NCBI RefSeq assembly: GCF_002283555.1
Contig: NZ_MVOI01000003.1
Span: 1,843,578-1,907,577, forward strand
Reading direction: 5' to 3'
Origin: Rubrivirga sp. SAORIC476
GTDB lineage: Bacteria > Bacteroidota > Rhodothermia > Rhodothermales > Rubricoccaceae
DNA: 64,000 nt
Part shown: piece after piece, positions 32,538-39,102 of the stretch
Position numbering within the stretch: position 1 is the first letter of the stretch
Layout: every line of letters starts with the position of its first letter
Notes under the pieces: model-generated
What the model saw: the letters and a program-made list of their open reading frames with translations, nothing else
What the model was told of the DNA's origin: nothing
Database searches by the model: none
Position numbers and translations under genes: made by a program

Positions 32538-33115
32538 CGGGCAGCGTTGTCGCGGTCGACGGTCTCCACACGGTCCGCGTCGCGGACGTCGGTGAGCAGG
32601 CAGGCCTCCAGCGCCTCGCCGTCCGGCGGGCCGTGCAGAACGGAGATGTCGCCGGTGGTCTCGAACACCACCGCCCGGACCTCGGAGGCGCGGAGGACAT
32701 TCGCTTCGCGGAGCTTGGCCCACACGTCGGCCTCGGTGACCCTGGCGCGGCGGAGGTTGTCACGCACCATGCCGTCCTTCGTCATCAGCAACAGCGGCTC
32801 GTTGTCGACGGCGTTCGAGACGGCCCGGCTCCGCTGTCGGAGCACGGCGAGCCCGATCTGGAGCGTAAAGATGACCGTCAGCGCCACGACGGCGCGGAGC
32901 AGCGAGGGCCCGTCGAACAGGACGCTGCCCGCTACGATGGAGCCGATCGCGACCGTCATCGCGAAGTCGAAGCCTGACAGCTTCGAGAACGTCCGCAGCC
33001 CGGCGAGGCGGGTGTAGACGATCAGCGCCACGTAGATGCCGACCGCCGTCAGCACCACGTCCCCGACGGTGCCCCAGGTCGTGAACAGCCAGTCGGCCGG
33101 GTCGAAGTCGCCCAT
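32528..33115 (-). CDS. DUF421 membrane protein, copy 1
   Basis: The 195-residue protein has three hydrophobic segments in the first 90 residues, including RTFSKLSGFDFAMTVAIGS, the hallmark of DUF421 (YetF-like) proteins. A cytoplasmic alpha/beta domain follows with EPLLLMTKDGMVRDNLRRARVTEADVWAKLR and VRAVVFETTGDISVLHG. The family's function is not settled; YetF-type proteins have been linked to membrane and stress physiology. The ATG at 33115 lies one base after the stop of copy 2, so both are in one operon. The two copies share VWAKLREANVL and ETTGDISVLHG word for word, so they arose by tandem duplication. Confidence 0.9.
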   Translation of the reverse strand: MGDFDPADWLFTTWGTVGDVVLTAVGIYVALIVYTRLAGLRTFSKLSGFDFAMTVAIGSIVAGSVLFDGPSLLRAVVALTVIFTLQIGLAVLRQRSRAVSNAVDNEPLLLMTKDGMVRDNLRRARVTEADVWAKLREANVLRASEVRAVVFETTGDISVLHGPPDGEALEACLLTDVRDADRVETVDRDNAARYL

Positions 33116-33116
33116 C

Positions 33117-33680
33117 TCAGACGGTGTAATCGTCCTCGCCGAGTTCGACGCGGTCCGATTCCCGGACGCCGCGCAGCAGACACGGGTGGAGCGCGGTCCC
33201 CGCCGCGTCCCCGTGGAGCACGGAGATGTCACCGGTCGTCTCCAGCACGACCGCCCGCACCTCCGAGGGGTCCAGCACGTTCGCCTCGCGGAGCTTGGCC
33301 CACACGTCGTTCTCGGTAACGCGCGTCTTCCGGAGGTTGTCGGTCAGCATCCGATTCCCGGCCATCAGCACGACCGGTTCGTTGTCGAACACGTGCTCGG
33401 CCCACGAGGTGTGCTTCCGAAGCCACGACACCACCACCTGGATCGCGAACAGGCTCACCAGCGCGACCGCCGCTCGCGGCAGGGAAGGGGACTCGGAGAG
33501 CACCGCCGTCGCCAGGATGGAGCCTGTGGCGATCGTCATCGCGAAGTCGACGCTCGTCATCTTCGAGAAGCTGCGCAACCCGACCAGCCGGACGAGCCCG
33601 ATCAGGATGGCGAAGACCGCGACGGCGGACAGGGCTACAGCGAGAAGAGCGGTGGGGTCGGCGGTGAACCAGTCGGACAT
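33117..33680 (-). CDS. DUF421 membrane protein, copy 2
   Basis: The 187-residue protein has the same layout as its downstream paralogue: three N-terminal helices with RSFSKMTSVDFAMTIATGS, then EPVVLMAGNRMLTDNLRKTRVTENDVWAKLR and VRAVVLETTGDISVLHG. It is the first gene of the pair. The ATG at 33678-33680 is preceded by CTCCCTCCCCACGAC. The two proteins may form heteromers; this is inferred only from pairing. The frame runs far upstream as an antisense shadow of the acyltransferase and was cut at this ATG because the domain starts here. Confidence 0.9.
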   Translation of the reverse strand: MSDWFTADPTALLAVALSAVAVFAILIGLVRLVGLRSFSKMTSVDFAMTIATGSILATAVLSESPSLPRAAVALVSLFAIQVVVSWLRKHTSWAEHVFDNEPVVLMAGNRMLTDNLRKTRVTENDVWAKLREANVLDPSEVRAVVLETTGDISVLHGDAAGTALHPCLLRGVRESDRVELGEDDYTV

Positions 33681-33847
33681 GTCGTGGGGAGGGAGACGCG
33701 GCTCAGGAGAGACGGCCTGAGAGTCGCAGACATACGCGGGACGCCGGGCAGAGTGCCGTTGCCGCACGCTTTGGCATCGGAACGAACGCCAGACGAAGGC
33801 TCGGGGACTCGGCTTCGGCGGCGAGACCCCTCCCTGTGTCTGCCCGC

Positions 33848-33854
33848 TAGATTC
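33848..33854 (+). promoter_or_regulatory. TAGATTC box next to the acyltransferase start
   Basis: TAGATTC lies 6 nt before the ATG at 33861. If it acts as a -7 box, the messenger would be leaderless or nearly so, as predicted also for the BatA gene. Confidence 0.35.
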
Positions 33855-33860
33855 CGACAG

Positions 33861-35951
33861 ATGAGCAACGAGACCGCGGAGTCGCATCGCCCTGCCCTCG
33901 CTTTCCAGCCCCTCCGGACGCCTGGCGAGCGGCCCCCCTTTCGAGCTGACATCGAGGGGGTGCGCGGCATCGCCGTCCTCCTCGTCGTGCTCTACCACGC
34001 TGGAGTGCCTGGCTTCTCTGGAGGCTACGTGGGCGTCGACGTGTTCTTCGCTCTCTCGGGCTACCTCATCACCGGAATTCTGGTCGCCGAGGTCGAGCGG
34101 ACCGGTCGGCTCGACCTCGCTCGGTTCTACGCTCGCCGTGCCCGGCGCCTTCTCCCCGCGGCCGCGGTCCTGCTCCTCGCCACGACGGTATTCGCGTCCG
34201 TCTTCTACTCGCCGCTCGAGCAGCAGGGCATCGCGCGGACGGCGCTCGCGACAGCGGCTTATGTCTCGAACATGCACTTCGCGGCGGGCGCGACCGACTA
34301 CCTGGCGGCCGATGCAGAGACGAACCCTCTGCTGCACACCTGGTCGCTCGCAGTCGAGGAGCAGTTTTACCTCGGCTGGCCCCTCCTCGTCCTGGTCGGT
34401 CTGGTCGGGGTCCCGTGGCTCCGCAGGGGGCGGCTCGCGCTGAGCCGTCGGCGCCTCGCCTGGACCATGGGCGCCGTCGCCGTCGCGACGTTCGCGCTCA
34501 CGGTCGTCCTCATGGGGACGTATCGGACCCACTGGGCCTTCTTCGCCTCGCCCCCGCGGGCGTGGGAGTTCGCCGTGGGAGGGCTCGGGGCGCTGCTTCC
34601 CCGCGTCCGGGTTCTCGCGGTGCACGGGGCCGAGTCGGAGATCGGGACTCGCGTGCTCGGGTGGGTGGGGCTCGTCGCCATCGTCGGCGCCAGCACGCTG
34701 TACACGGCGCGGACGTCGTTTCCCGGCTGGGCCGCGCTGGCCCCGGTCGTCGGGACGGTCCTGGCGCTCCGGGCAGGGGTCGGGCAGCCGACCACGGCGC
34801 TGAGCCGCTTCCTGGAGTGGCGCCCCCTCCGGGAGGCCGGGCGGCTCTCGTACTCCTGGTACCTCTGGCACTGGCCCGTGCTGGTCTTCGCCGACGGGCT
34901 GTGGGTGGAGGGTGTAGGAGGCCACCTCTCGCTTCCGGTCCGGCTCGGGCTCCTGGCGTTCTCGCTCGTGCTGGCGGAGGGGTCGTACCGCTTTGTGGAG
35001 AACCCCGTCCGGCACCACCGCTGGCTCGCTGGGCGTCCAGCACGAGGGGGGATGCTCCTCGTCGCGCTCACCGCGGGTGGCGTCGCACTCGCCTTCGGGT
35101 GGAGAGCGGAGGCCATCCGCGCTGCGCGGTCGCCAGATCAGGCCCTCTACTCTCGGGCCGTCGACGACATCGACCTCGGGACCTACTGCATCACCGACGT
35201 CCGGGGGACGGGCCTGACGAACTGCGCCCTCGGTGACACGACCTCGTCCAGGGTGGCCGTGCTGTACGGAGACAGTCACGCTTTCCAGTGGCTGGCTGCG
35301 GCCGACCGCGTGGCCGCAGCACACGGATGGCGGCTCGAGACCGTGATGAAGTCCAGTTGCCCCGCCATCGATGCGACGAGGTGGAACGCCAAGCTGGGGC
35401 GCGACTTCGTCGAGTGCGATGCCTGGCGCTCGAACGCGATGGACCGGATCGACGCGCTGAGCCCGGAGATGGTCATCGTCAGCTCCGCGTGGACCTCGTT
35501 CGACGGCATCCCTCCCGCCGAGTGGGCTTCCGGGACCGCACGCACGTTCTCTCGGCTCTCCAGGGCCAGTGGCTCCGTGCTGGTCGTCCGGGACACGCCA
35601 CATCCCGGGTTCGACGTCCCCTCCTGTCTCGCTCGCAGGAAGAAGCGGCCAGGCCTGGACTGCTCGTTCGCCCTCGACGGCGGTCAGGGCCAGGCGGTGT
35701 ACCAGGCCCAGGTGGACGCCGCGTCGGCCTTCGAGAACGTCTCGACCGTGGACCTGACGCGTGTCCTCTGCCCGACGGGGACGTGCGCAGCCCTCCGAGG
35801 CGACACGCTGGTCGCCTGGCGCGACGACAACCACATGACGGCGACGTTTGCACGGTCCCTGGCGCCCTCGCTCTCCAGGGCCGTGGACGAGGCGCGTGCC
35901 CACGAGCGTTCGGCCGTTCACCCCGGCGTGCCCGTCCGGACGGGCCGATAG
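33861..35951 (+). CDS. OafA/YrhL-type acyltransferase with C-terminal SGNH domain
   Basis: The 696-residue protein has an acyltransferase-3 membrane domain of about ten helices that starts with FRADIEGVRGIAVLLVVLYH (catalytic His near residue 46) and GGYVGVDVFFALSGYLIT. It continues with LLHTWSLAVEEQFYLGWPLL and FRFVENP-type RFVENPVRHH. A periplasmic SGNH domain follows from about residue 450: AVLYGDSHAFQW holds the Ser nucleophile, and DDNHMT supplies Asp and His near 650. These enzymes O-acetylate surface polysaccharide or peptidoglycan, taking the acyl group across the membrane. It has no adjacent glycan operon; the acceptor is unknown. Confidence 0.93.
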   Translation: MSNETAESHRPALAFQPLRTPGERPPFRADIEGVRGIAVLLVVLYHAGVPGFSGGYVGVDVFFALSGYLITGILVAEVERTGRLDLARFYARRARRLLPAAAVLLLATTVFASVFYSPLEQQGIARTALATAAYVSNMHFAAGATDYLAADAETNPLLHTWSLAVEEQFYLGWPLLVLVGLVGVPWLRRGRLALSRRRLAWTMGAVAVATFALTVVLMGTYRTHWAFFASPPRAWEFAVGGLGALLPRVRVLAVHGAESEIGTRVLGWVGLVAIVGASTLYTARTSFPGWAALAPVVGTVLALRAGVGQPTTALSRFLEWRPLREAGRLSYSWYLWHWPVLVFADGLWVEGVGGHLSLPVRLGLLAFSLVLAEGSYRFVENPVRHHRWLAGRPARGGMLLVALTAGGVALAFGWRAEAIRAARSPDQALYSRAVDDIDLGTYCITDVRGTGLTNCALGDTTSSRVAVLYGDSHAFQWLAAADRVAAAHGWRLETVMKSSCPAIDATRWNAKLGRDFVECDAWRSNAMDRIDALSPEMVIVSSAWTSFDGIPPAEWASGTARTFSRLSRASGSVLVVRDTPHPGFDVPSCLARRKKRPGLDCSFALDGGQGQAVYQAQVDAASAFENVSTVDLTRVLCPTGTCAALRGDTLVAWRDDNHMTATFARSLAPSLSRAVDEARAHERSAVHPGVPVRTGR

Positions 35952-36017: not shown

Positions 36018-36791
36018 ATGCGCGCCCCTCGGATCCGCTTCGCACTCGTTCTCGGCCTCATCGCGTCCGTGGGGTGTGCCTCGGACCCGCACCCCGCCGC
36101 GGACCTCGCTGCCGCCGTCGAGTCGCGGATCGCCGAGGTCGAGGCCGCAGGCGGGACGGTCCGCCTCGCGGCGTTCGTGGTCACCGACGGCGTGTTCAAC
36201 TCGGAGCTGATGGCCCCCTACGACGTGCTCCACCACACCGTCTTTCGCGATTCGCTGGACTACGTCGAGCCGGTTGTGGTGTCACCCGACGGCGGCCCGG
36301 TGACCACGTTCGAGGGGCTCCGTGTGGACGCTCACTACAGCTTCGCGACGGCCCCACGGGCCGACATCCTCGTCATCCCCAGCACCGACGGCAGCCTCGA
36401 CCGCGACCTGGACGACGACGCCTACATGAGCTACGTGCCCCATGCTGCCGAGGCCGCCGAATGGGTCCTGACGGTCTGCGACGGTGCCTTCCCGCTCGCG
36501 GCGACGGGCCTCCTCGACGGCCGCGTGGCGACCACCTTTCCCGCCGACCGCGCCGCCATGGCCGAGCGCTTCCCCGAGGTGGACGTCCGCGATGACGTGC
36601 GGCTGGTGGTGGACGGTACCTACATCACGTCGGTCGGGGGCGGGATGAGCTACGAGCCCGCGTTCTGGCTCGTGGAACACCTCTGGGGGGCCGAGAGAGT
36701 GGAGGGCAATGCGGAGGGCCTGGTTTGGCCGTGGGACCTCGCGACTCTGCCTCATCTCGTGGTGGACCGGGACCCGGGAGCAGACCGATGA
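36018..36791 (+). CDS. DJ-1/PfpI-family lipoprotein
   Basis: The 257-residue protein starts with a lipoprotein signal ending SVGC (Cys20). The mature domain has the DJ-1/PfpI fold: VRLAAFVVTDGVFNSELMAPYDVLHH, DILVIPSTDG, the nucleophile elbow WVLTVCDGAFPLAATGLLDGR (Cys near residue 154), TTFPAD and VVDGTYITSVGGGMSYEPAFWLVE. The order matches the GATase1-like transcriptional-regulator and amidase branch, but there is no DNA-binding domain. Being membrane-anchored outside the cytoplasm is unusual for this family. The substrate is unknown; glyoxalase, protease or hydratase activity would all be possible. The ATG lies in a short leader after a TAGCTTG box. Confidence 0.88.
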   Translation: MRAPRIRFALVLGLIASVGCASDPHPAADLAAAVESRIAEVEAAGGTVRLAAFVVTDGVFNSELMAPYDVLHHTVFRDSLDYVEPVVVSPDGGPVTTFEGLRVDAHYSFATAPRADILVIPSTDGSLDRDLDDDAYMSYVPHAAEAAEWVLTVCDGAFPLAATGLLDGRVATTFPADRAAMAERFPEVDVRDDVRLVVDGTYITSVGGGMSYEPAFWLVEHLWGAERVEGNAEGLVWPWDLATLPHLVVDRDPGADR

Positions 36792-36874
36792 CCGGCAGAC
36801 GCTAAAGCTGGCCTCCAACACGCCGATCTCTCGCGGAGACCCTTCGGGCGAGGACGAGATTGATATTAAAAATT

Positions 36875-36908
36875 TTTGATCTCATCTAATCATGCCTCAT
36901 TATATTCG
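36875..36908 (+). promoter_or_regulatory. Near-consensus -33/-7 promoter in an AT-rich island
   Basis: TTTG at 36875-36878, a 22-nt gap and TATATTCG at 36901-36908 follow the Bacteroidota TTTG ... TAnnTTTG pattern with one -7 mismatch. The surrounding 36860-36910 is by far the most AT-rich stretch of the window (runs such as ATTAAAAATTTTT). The predicted start near 36915 lies 20 nt before the ATG of the proline-rich small gene. Confidence 0.6.
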
Positions 36909-36934
36909 GATCCCTGGTCTGTCGCCCACTCGCT

Positions 36935-37072
36935 ATGACGCCTCCCCGCATCACGCCTGCCCCCTGGCCCGTCGCGCCACCGCCGTCGTTCGCCAGCTGG
37001 GCGCCGCCGCCTGCCCCGAAGCCGAAGTCTTCTGAGAAGGGGACGATGCTCCCCAAGGCCGGCCGCGCCTGA
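36935..37072 (+). CDS. Possible 45-residue proline-rich small protein
   Basis: A complete ATG frame of 46 codons follows the best promoter-like sequence of the window. The peptide is proline-rich (14 of 45 residues) with three Trp-Pro or Ser-Trp elements (PAPWPVAPPPSF, SWAPPPAP), then a basic PKPKSSEKG linker and a C-terminal LPKAGRA. It has no signal peptide or membrane helix and no Cys. A frame on the other strand (36886-37092, MSLTERSQARPALG...) overlaps it, but no promoter fits that strand. I do not recognise the peptide; it could be a secreted or modified peptide, an SH3-type ligand or noise. Confidence 0.42.
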   Translation: MTPPRITPAPWPVAPPPSFASWAPPPAPKPKSSEKGTMLPKAGRA

Positions 37073-37082
37073 GATCGCTCGG

Positions 37083-37511
37083 TCAAGGACAAGCCTCGGC
37101 CGATCGCGCGTACACCGACGTGCCGAGGTCGTCCTCCAGCCTCAGTGCCTCGCCGTCCCGTGCTGCCCGGTAGGTTCTGCCATCGAAGAGGACCGTGTCT
37201 CCGCTGACCTCGACGGAGGTCACGAGGGCCGGGCGGTCGTGGAGGTAGGTCCGCATCTCCGCGCCTTCCACGGTGGCCGCCTCGTCGAGCGCGCCGTCTC
37301 CGGAGCAGAAGACCCAGTCCCCGCCGAGGTCCTCCAGACTCAGCAGGGGAGGGGCGGCCGCGAGATCCTCTGGTGGGGCGACCTCGGGTGAGGGCTGGTC
37401 CGTCTCGGGCGTGACGAGGGGGGAGGGGGCGCTGGGATCGGCCGTCGCGGGCTCATCGGGGGCATCGGCGCAGGCGCCGAGGAGGAGGGCGAGGAGCAGA
37501 AGGTGTCGCAT
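37083..37511 (-). CDS. Hypothetical lipoprotein
   Basis: The 142-residue protein has a lipoprotein signal MRHLLLLALLLGAC (Cys14) and then a Pro/Ala/Glu-rich spacer up to about residue 60. A small C-terminal domain follows that begins LSLEDLGGDWVFCSGDGALDE and contains VTSVEVSGDTVLFDGRTYRA. The folded part looks like a small beta-barrel or lipocalin-like unit with two Cys (near 69 and the penultimate residue), but no family is recognised. It lies 2 nt downstream of the esterase gene on the same strand and is most likely co-transcribed with it. ATG 37511 starts right at the signal peptide. Confidence 0.68.
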   Translation of the reverse strand: MRHLLLLALLLGACADAPDEPATADPSAPSPLVTPETDQPSPEVAPPEDLAAAPPLLSLEDLGGDWVFCSGDGALDEAATVEGAEMRTYLHDRPALVTSVEVSGDTVLFDGRTYRAARDGEALRLEDDLGTSVYARSAEACP

Positions 37512-37513
37512 GA

Positions 37514-38227
37514 TCAGTCGTCGAGGTGGTGGCTCAGGAGCCACGTGTAGAGGTCATCGGAGGCATAGGCTTCCGACCACGAGTCGTGCCCGGCGTCCGG
37601 GTAGACGGTGAAGCGTACGTCGCCGCCCGCGTTCCGGAGTGTGCGCACCATGCCGACCGACATCTCGATCGGGACGACGGGGTCCATGGCGCCGTGGAAC
37701 GCCCACACGGGCACGTCGCGGGCGGCCTCGATCCCGAGTGGAAGCCCACCGCCGCAGATCGGGACCGCCGCCGCGAACCGCTCCGGCATGCGCATGATGG
37801 CCTCCCACGTCCCGAACCCGCCCATCGACAGGCCCGTCAGGTAGACGCGGCTCTCGTCGATGCGGTACTGCGCGATGGCCGCGTCCAGCGCCGCCGCCAC
37901 GCGCCCGACCGTCCACCGGCTGCCCGTCGGGACCTGGGGAGCTACGATCACGAAGGGGAGGTCACGGCCCGCCGCCCGCTCCTTCAGCGGTCCGTGGACG
38001 CCCACCACGGCGAGGCTGTCGCCCCGTTCGCCCGCGCCGTGGAGAAACAGAAGCAGCGGCCAGTCGCGGTCCGGGGCCGCGTCGTAGCCCTCGGGCAACG
38101 AGACGATGGCGTCGCCCGAGGCGGTGTCCGTCCAGCCCCCATCGTAGGCGAGGCGCGTCTGAGCGGAGGCGGAGGCGGCGAGCATGACGGTCAGGAGGAC
38201 GAAGCCGAAACGGCGGGACGAGGACAT
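37514..38227 (-). CDS. Secreted alpha/beta hydrolase (PHB-depolymerase/LpqC-type esterase)
   Basis: The 237-residue protein has a signal peptide (FGFVLLTVMLAASASA, cut near residue 22). It then has the hydrolase core LLLFLHGAGERGDSL, FVIVAPQVPTGSRW, the nucleophile elbow VYLTGLSMGGFGTWEAI (Ser near 134), acid AFHGAMDPVVP and His in YPDAGHDSWSEAY. This is the prolyl-oligopeptidase-like/PHB-depolymerase group, often annotated as phospholipase or carboxylesterase, acting in the periplasm or outside. It heads a two-gene operon with the lipoprotein gene 2 nt downstream and is divergent from the MerR gene, which might control it. The natural ester is unknown. Confidence 0.9.
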   Translation of the reverse strand: MSSSRRFGFVLLTVMLAASASAQTRLAYDGGWTDTASGDAIVSLPEGYDAAPDRDWPLLLFLHGAGERGDSLAVVGVHGPLKERAAGRDLPFVIVAPQVPTGSRWTVGRVAAALDAAIAQYRIDESRVYLTGLSMGGFGTWEAIMRMPERFAAAVPICGGGLPLGIEAARDVPVWAFHGAMDPVVPIEMSVGMVRTLRNAGGDVRFTVYPDAGHDSWSEAYASDDLYTWLLSHHLDD

Positions 38228-38328
38228 CGGCGGGATCAGTGTGCGGAGAGACGGTGAAGCTACGCGACGGCGCTTGCTCCTCCCCCCGCGTCAGGTCCGT
38301 ACGCTTCGCCATCCCGCCTCCTGGTCCG

Positions 38329-39102
38329 ATGACTCACCGTTCCCTCCCTTCCGGCGACGCCCTCGGGCTCCGCGTCGGTGAGCTGGCCGCGCGGGCCGGT
38401 GTCAGCGTTCGCGCGCTGCACCACTACGAGGCGGCCGGCCTGCTCCATCCCCGCCGGACCGGCGCCGGCCACCGGCGCTATGGCCCGGCCGACGCCGAGC
38501 GGCTGTTCCACGTCACCGCGCTCCGCGCGCTCGGCCTCGGGCTGGACGCGATCCGCGAGGTGCTCGACGCGCCCGACGCCGACCCGGTCGCGCTCGTGGC
38601 TCGCCAGCGGGAGGCGCTGGCCGCCGAGGCTCGCCGCCTCGACGCGCTCGCGGACCGCCTCGGCGACCTCGGGCGCCTTCTCCAGCAGCGCGCCACCGCT
38701 GGAGCGCCCATCCCTCCCGACACCTTCCTCACTCTCACCACCGCCATGTCTGCCTTCGACCGCCACTACACGCCCGGGCAACTCCAGCAGCTCGCCGACC
38801 GCCGTGAGTCCTTCGGCGAGGACGCCATCCGCGCCGTCGAGGCCGAGTGGCCGCGCCTCTTCGAGGCCGTCGGCCGGGAGATGGACGCGGGCACCAACCC
38901 GGCCGCCCCTACCGCCCGCGCCCTCATCGACCGGTGGGACGAGCTGGTGGCGATGTTCACTGGCGGCGACCCCGGCATCCGCCAGTCGCTCGGGACCGCC
39001 GTCGAGGCCGACCGCGAAGGCGCCTCAGCGATGATGGGCCTCGACCCGGATCGGATGCGCGACCTGTTCGCCTTCGCTCAGCGCGTCCGCGACGCACGAT
39101 GA
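38329..39102 (+). CDS. MerR-family regulator with TipAS-type antibiotic-binding domain
   Basis: The 257-residue protein has an N-terminal MerR winged helix (LRVGELAARAGVSVRALHHYEAAGLL, then RTGAGHRRYGPADAERL) and a coiled-coil dimerisation helix rich in Arg/Leu at about 85-125. The C-terminal domain (MSAFDRHYTPGQLQQLADRR ... LIDRWDELVAMFTGGDPGIRQSLG) matches the TipAS family, which captures thiopeptide or other hydrophobic ligands and switches on efflux genes. No Cys metal site is present. The divergent esterase gene begins about 100 bp away and is the obvious candidate target. A TACGCTTC box lies at 38300-38307. Confidence 0.9.
   Translation: MTHRSLPSGDALGLRVGELAARAGVSVRALHHYEAAGLLHPRRTGAGHRRYGPADAERLFHVTALRALGLGLDAIREVLDAPDADPVALVARQREALAAEARRLDALADRLGDLGRLLQQRATAGAPIPPDTFLTLTTAMSAFDRHYTPGQLQQLADRRESFGEDAIRAVEAEWPRLFEAVGREMDAGTNPAAPTARALIDRWDELVAMFTGGDPGIRQSLGTAVEADREGASAMMGLDPDRMRDLFAFAQRVRDAR

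Follow-up and report, generated by a model that had tools for sequence, protein, structure and literature searches.

The window analysed here is a stretch of 64,000 nucleotides (64 kb) of Rubrivirga sp. SAORIC476 (genome G000). On its plus strand, positions 36935..37072 (stop codon included) hold a 45-codon frame, MTPPRITPAPWPVAPPPSFASWAPPPAPKPKSSEKGTMLPKAGRA, which very probably is a small protein gene. The upstream neighbour on the same strand, 143 nt away, is a gene of the DJ-1/PfpI family (36018..36791; PF01965, E 7e-18), which has an ortholog at the corresponding place in genome G003. Downstream, on the minus strand, lie a convergent gene encoding a putative lipoprotein (37083..37544) and a gene encoding an alpha/beta-hydrolase (37514..38227; PF00326/PF02230), followed on the plus strand by the gene of a MerR regulator with a TipAS-like domain (38239-39102) that is kept beside the hydrolase in five genomes. 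The lipoprotein gene is found at this place only in the species of the window, and the corresponding syntenic regions in the relatives contain no match. With the GTG start that was called mechanically, it overlaps the hydrolase gene at the latter's 3' end, and an internal ATG near 37511 is the likelier start. Further upstream on the plus strand, a long frame (33036-35951) encodes acyltransferase-3 and SGNH domains (PF01757, PF19040), and the opening 270 codons or so probably lie outside the gene.

The encoded small protein, which begins MTPPRITPAPWPVAPPPSF..., contains 14 prolines among its 45 residues, as was described in the first-pass annotation of this DNA; such richness in proline is uncommon, being seen in 2 of the 76 ATG-initiated ORFs of this size class (35-60 aa) in the window. 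Taken alone the frame proves nothing, because the local DNA, with 72% G+C, is full of such frames (70 ORFs of at least 40 aa in 8 kb) and the codon usage of the frame itself is neutral (log-odds -2.2). Two parts can be distinguished by alignment. The conserved core, P[VI]T[PA]xRWPV[AST]P[TPA]P[SD]F[AV]xWTPPPAP (36944..37018, plus strand), includes the invariant residues Trp11, Phe19 and Trp22, and is followed by a variable charged tail (37019..37069), basic in this copy and acidic in two homologues. No match to the family was found in Pfam, NCBIfam or PHROGs, nor in the PDB by sequence or by fold. The AlphaFold model has neither helix nor strand, with pLDDT of 82-86 over residues 1-30 and a pTM of 0.22.

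A translated search of 60 relatives with the single sequence as query gave matches in G001 (E 5.5e-5) and G003 (E 6.6e-5), and the copy of G002 was reached through a DNA match. Using a profile together with tBLASTn, we found five copies in all four Rubrivirga genomes examined (G000, G001, G002 and G003), that is, four beyond the one in the window, two of them in tandem in G003; one of the five sequences is cut by a contig end. The profile E-values of these copies (5e-23 to 2.5e-14) are flattering, since the same five sequences were used to build the profile, and the evidence free of this circularity is that of the single-sequence search, the coding test and synteny. Named records among the matches are Rubrivirga sp. 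SW42617_bin_3 and an uncultured bacterium. The DNA-level homology search yielded short matches only. One of these, of 28 bp in G003 (L004), was dismissed as a chance match with the motif in no forward frame, and no copy of the motif was found in G001:C508.

Outside the genus no copy was found in the five other genomes of the family Rubricoccaceae or in a sample of 394 others from the phylum, for which scoring in the first pass was limited to 17 candidates per genome. Weak profile matches beyond the genus (G014, G027, G058, G024) proved to be unrelated frames. The viral-contig and plasmid collections gave none, and the genome contig collection gave only the loci of the genus. Among the genomes searched, the predicted small protein family is restricted to Rubrivirga.

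Nine core positions are invariant across the five copies (T, W, P, V, P, P, F, W, P). Moreover, an ATG lies 10-18 codons ahead of the first tryptophan in all four untruncated copies, and the stop codon lies 34-37 codons past it in all five. The tails differ in charge: three copies have a basic tail, while the G001 and G003a copies are strongly acidic (pI 4.1). The two tandem small genes of G003 (L007:1187-1626) have a common core and oppositely charged tails, with pI values of 12.0 and 4.1.

Coding capacity was assessed over 25 codons in the five sequences (window segment 36944..37018), by comparing pairwise BLOSUM scores with those of column-shuffled alignments. The plus frame reached z = 5.0, a score that none of 1000 shuffles attained, and the other sense frames scored negative. 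Differences by codon position in this alignment were 59/55/93, and over the core mean dN was 0.26 and mean dS 0.66, giving a dN/dS of about 0.4. These computations show that a core of roughly 25 residues is under selection at the amino-acid level. The proposal of the first-pass annotation that an unannotated small gene lies here is thus borne out both by the tBLASTn conservation in three other Rubrivirga genomes and by the coding score and dN/dS.

The frame on the opposite strand (36886-37092) had been named as an alternative, of which the plus frame would be a mere mirror. Wobble positions are common to both frames, and the minus frame, too, lies above chance with z 2.5, but resampling of synonymous codons separates the two. 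Were the minus strand the coding one, the plus frame would be expected to score 745 +/- 43, but it scores 954 (reached in 0 of 2000 resamplings); with coding on the plus strand, the expectation for the minus frame is 643 +/- 21 and the observed value 685 (P 0.03). The plus score is therefore out of reach of minus-strand coding and the minus score is nearly explained by plus-strand coding, which identifies the plus frame as the coding one. In addition, the start and stop of the minus frame are inconsistent in the relatives, with lengths of 68, 308, 432 and 360 aa, and we regard this alternative as very improbable. Equally improbable is a chance ORF within a conserved non-coding element, a terminator or a structured RNA. 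Such ORFs are abundant in GC-rich DNA, but here the substitutions are biased to third positions of the plus frame, the folding of the transcript is not unusual (z +1.3), and neither an Rfam match nor a terminator-like site was found. A search for an intrinsic terminator likewise found none, and the fold considered for it is unremarkable.

The surroundings of the other copies resemble those in the window. In G003 the order is a MutM-like gene (minus), DJ-1 (plus), an amidohydrolase gene (plus), small genes b and a (both plus), the alpha/beta-hydrolase gene (minus) and the MerR gene (plus). In G001 the small gene is followed by the hydrolase and MerR genes, so that the hydrolase adjoins the small gene in both genomes and serves as a syntenic marker. 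In G002 the small gene lies between MutM and another gene, which we take to be DUF423-like. MutM adjoins the hydrolase in G007, of another genus, with no small gene between them. These gene orders give the impression of a single ancestral neighbourhood of which parts have remained, and the simplest account of the family is therefore inheritance at one and the same place, the tandem pair being found in G003. As a separate observation, the MutM/Fpg-like gene has no match at E <= 1e-20 in the whole G000 genome, although it belongs to the neighbourhood in G002, G003 and G007 and is present in G001 and G004.

Immediately upstream of the small gene there is an AT-rich island (36846-36913, or 36855..36910 when drawn more narrowly), single-copy in the genome. 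It had been described as the most AT-rich stretch of the window, and it is in fact the only place in the 64 kb with 30-mers of at least 63% AT; its peak of 83% exceeds the 77% that is the maximum over 800 kb sampled from this contig. Within it, inspection of the plus strand confirmed the sequence TTTG (36875..36878), 22 nt, and TATATTCG (36901..36908) noted in the first-pass annotation, with the ATG at 36935 lying 34 nt after the beginning of TATATTCG and 27 nt past its end.

That annotation had called this arrangement a near-consensus promoter, of which the -7 box is supported and the -33 element is not. Our genome-wide promoter statistics refer to 800 kb of a G000 contig (G000:C3:1000001-1800000; L099-L118, L079-L098). 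In this sample TAnnTTnG occurs upstream of 318 genes 29 times in sense, 13 times in antisense and 8 times reversed, a sense enrichment, and the maximum for the stricter TAnnTT[CTG]G falls at 20-40 nt ahead of gene starts, a distance matched by the box of the small gene. Six TAnnTT[CTG]G sites are present in the window, four of them 30-64 nt before a called start, the small gene included. Nevertheless, the -7 box is support and not proof, because the AT-rich island raises the chance odds of such a box. As to the proposed -33 element, the -7 boxes of the 800 kb show no preference for T/TTG at a distance of about 20-35 nt on their upstream side. TTTG-N17-23-TANNTTYG occurs once in the window against 0.02 expected, but the strict pair occurs four times genome-wide, exactly as often as the reversed control, and hence the pair alone is not evidence. 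For three of the homologous genes the 5' sequence is available; the island is not conserved there and no such -7 box was found within 150 nt upstream, and therefore the promoter is not a trait of the family but particular to the species of the window.

In Flavobacterium the -7 box is placed at -12 to -5 (PMC9723704), which would put the transcription start near 36913 and give a 22-nt leader. No other gene on this strand needs a promoter here, as had been pointed out, since the next plus-strand gene begins at about 38239, past two minus-strand genes. On balance we consider it rather probable that the TATATTCG box drives the small gene. The competing view, to which we give a smaller though appreciable chance, accepts the gene and takes the island for a local insertion or an accident of composition, with expression by read-through from the upstream DJ-1 gene. 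In its favour are the absence of the island in front of the homologues and the lack of genome-wide enrichment of the strict -33/-7 pair, and in G003 DJ-1, the amidohydrolase and the two small genes do follow one another on one strand and could be read together. Against it, the box belongs to the -7 type that is enriched in this genome and lies at the preferred distance, none of the AT-rich islands of the 800-kb sample lies in a convergent gap, and DJ-1 is 143 nt away.

A secreted or modified peptide was among the possibilities raised in the first-pass annotation; a processed peptide, such as a signal or a bacteriocin, is a reading of the same kind. The small size, the aromatic and proline composition and the basic tail of three copies would agree with this, but judged by eye the peptide has no hydrophobic N-terminal stretch and no double-glycine leader, it lacks cysteine, no transporter or modification gene is adjacent, and two copies are strongly acidic. 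We therefore find this suggestion unsupported and its probability low.

With moderate confidence, we propose as the best explanation of the whole a genus-restricted microprotein gene with its own likely -7-box promoter and a possibly docking product. In the species of the window, a single-gene transcript is likely to start about 22 nt before the ATG, driven by the TATATTCG box in the island, and to be translated without a Shine-Dalgarno sequence. The product may be a polyproline chain that stays in the cytoplasm and is for the most part unfolded. Its two tryptophans and one phenylalanine, set amid prolines, could fit into a groove on a partner protein, and the charged tail, which evolves freely, might tune that contact. 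This docking mechanism, deduced from composition, is put forward tentatively. More speculative still is the idea that pairs of the G003 type, with a common aromatic/proline core and tails of opposite charge, are interacting partners or competitors for one target, some species keeping the basic copy only and others perhaps the acidic one only.

Among known systems, leader (attenuator) peptides are likewise encoded by a short ORF soon past a likely promoter. Here, however, the gene that follows downstream is convergent, on the opposite strand, in G000, G001 and G002 as well as after copy a of G003. This leaves nothing to attenuate and contradicts a role as leader or attenuator. Proline-rich antimicrobial peptides are also short and proline-rich, with tryptophan or arginine, and they carry PRP repeats. 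The Rubrivirga peptide is without such repeats, its family includes acidic copies (G001 and G003a) and so is not cationic throughout as those peptides are, and no export signal was seen. Compared with the Bacteroidota sigma-A promoter (TTTG at -33, TAnnTTTG at -7), TATATTCG has one mismatch to TAnnTTTG, a C instead of T at its position 7, whereas the TTG preference at -33 is not seen in the high-GC genome G000. The results also speak for the use of a TAnnTTnG -7 box in a Rhodothermota-type genome of 72% G+C.

The closest likeness is to the genus-specific smORF families of a small-protein catalogue, where genus-specific families make up more than half of those that have at least three members (PMC11364881). 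Such genus-specific families likewise encode proteins of less than 100 aa, were found by conservation, carry a coding signature and are confined to one genus. The Rubrivirga microprotein family is one more genus-specific small protein family, its newness being judged from Pfam, NCBIfam and PHROGs. It adds a family with a sharply defined core motif that is absent from the libraries searched, and illustrates that even a 45-codon frame in DNA of such high G+C content can be supported through the comparison of four genomes.
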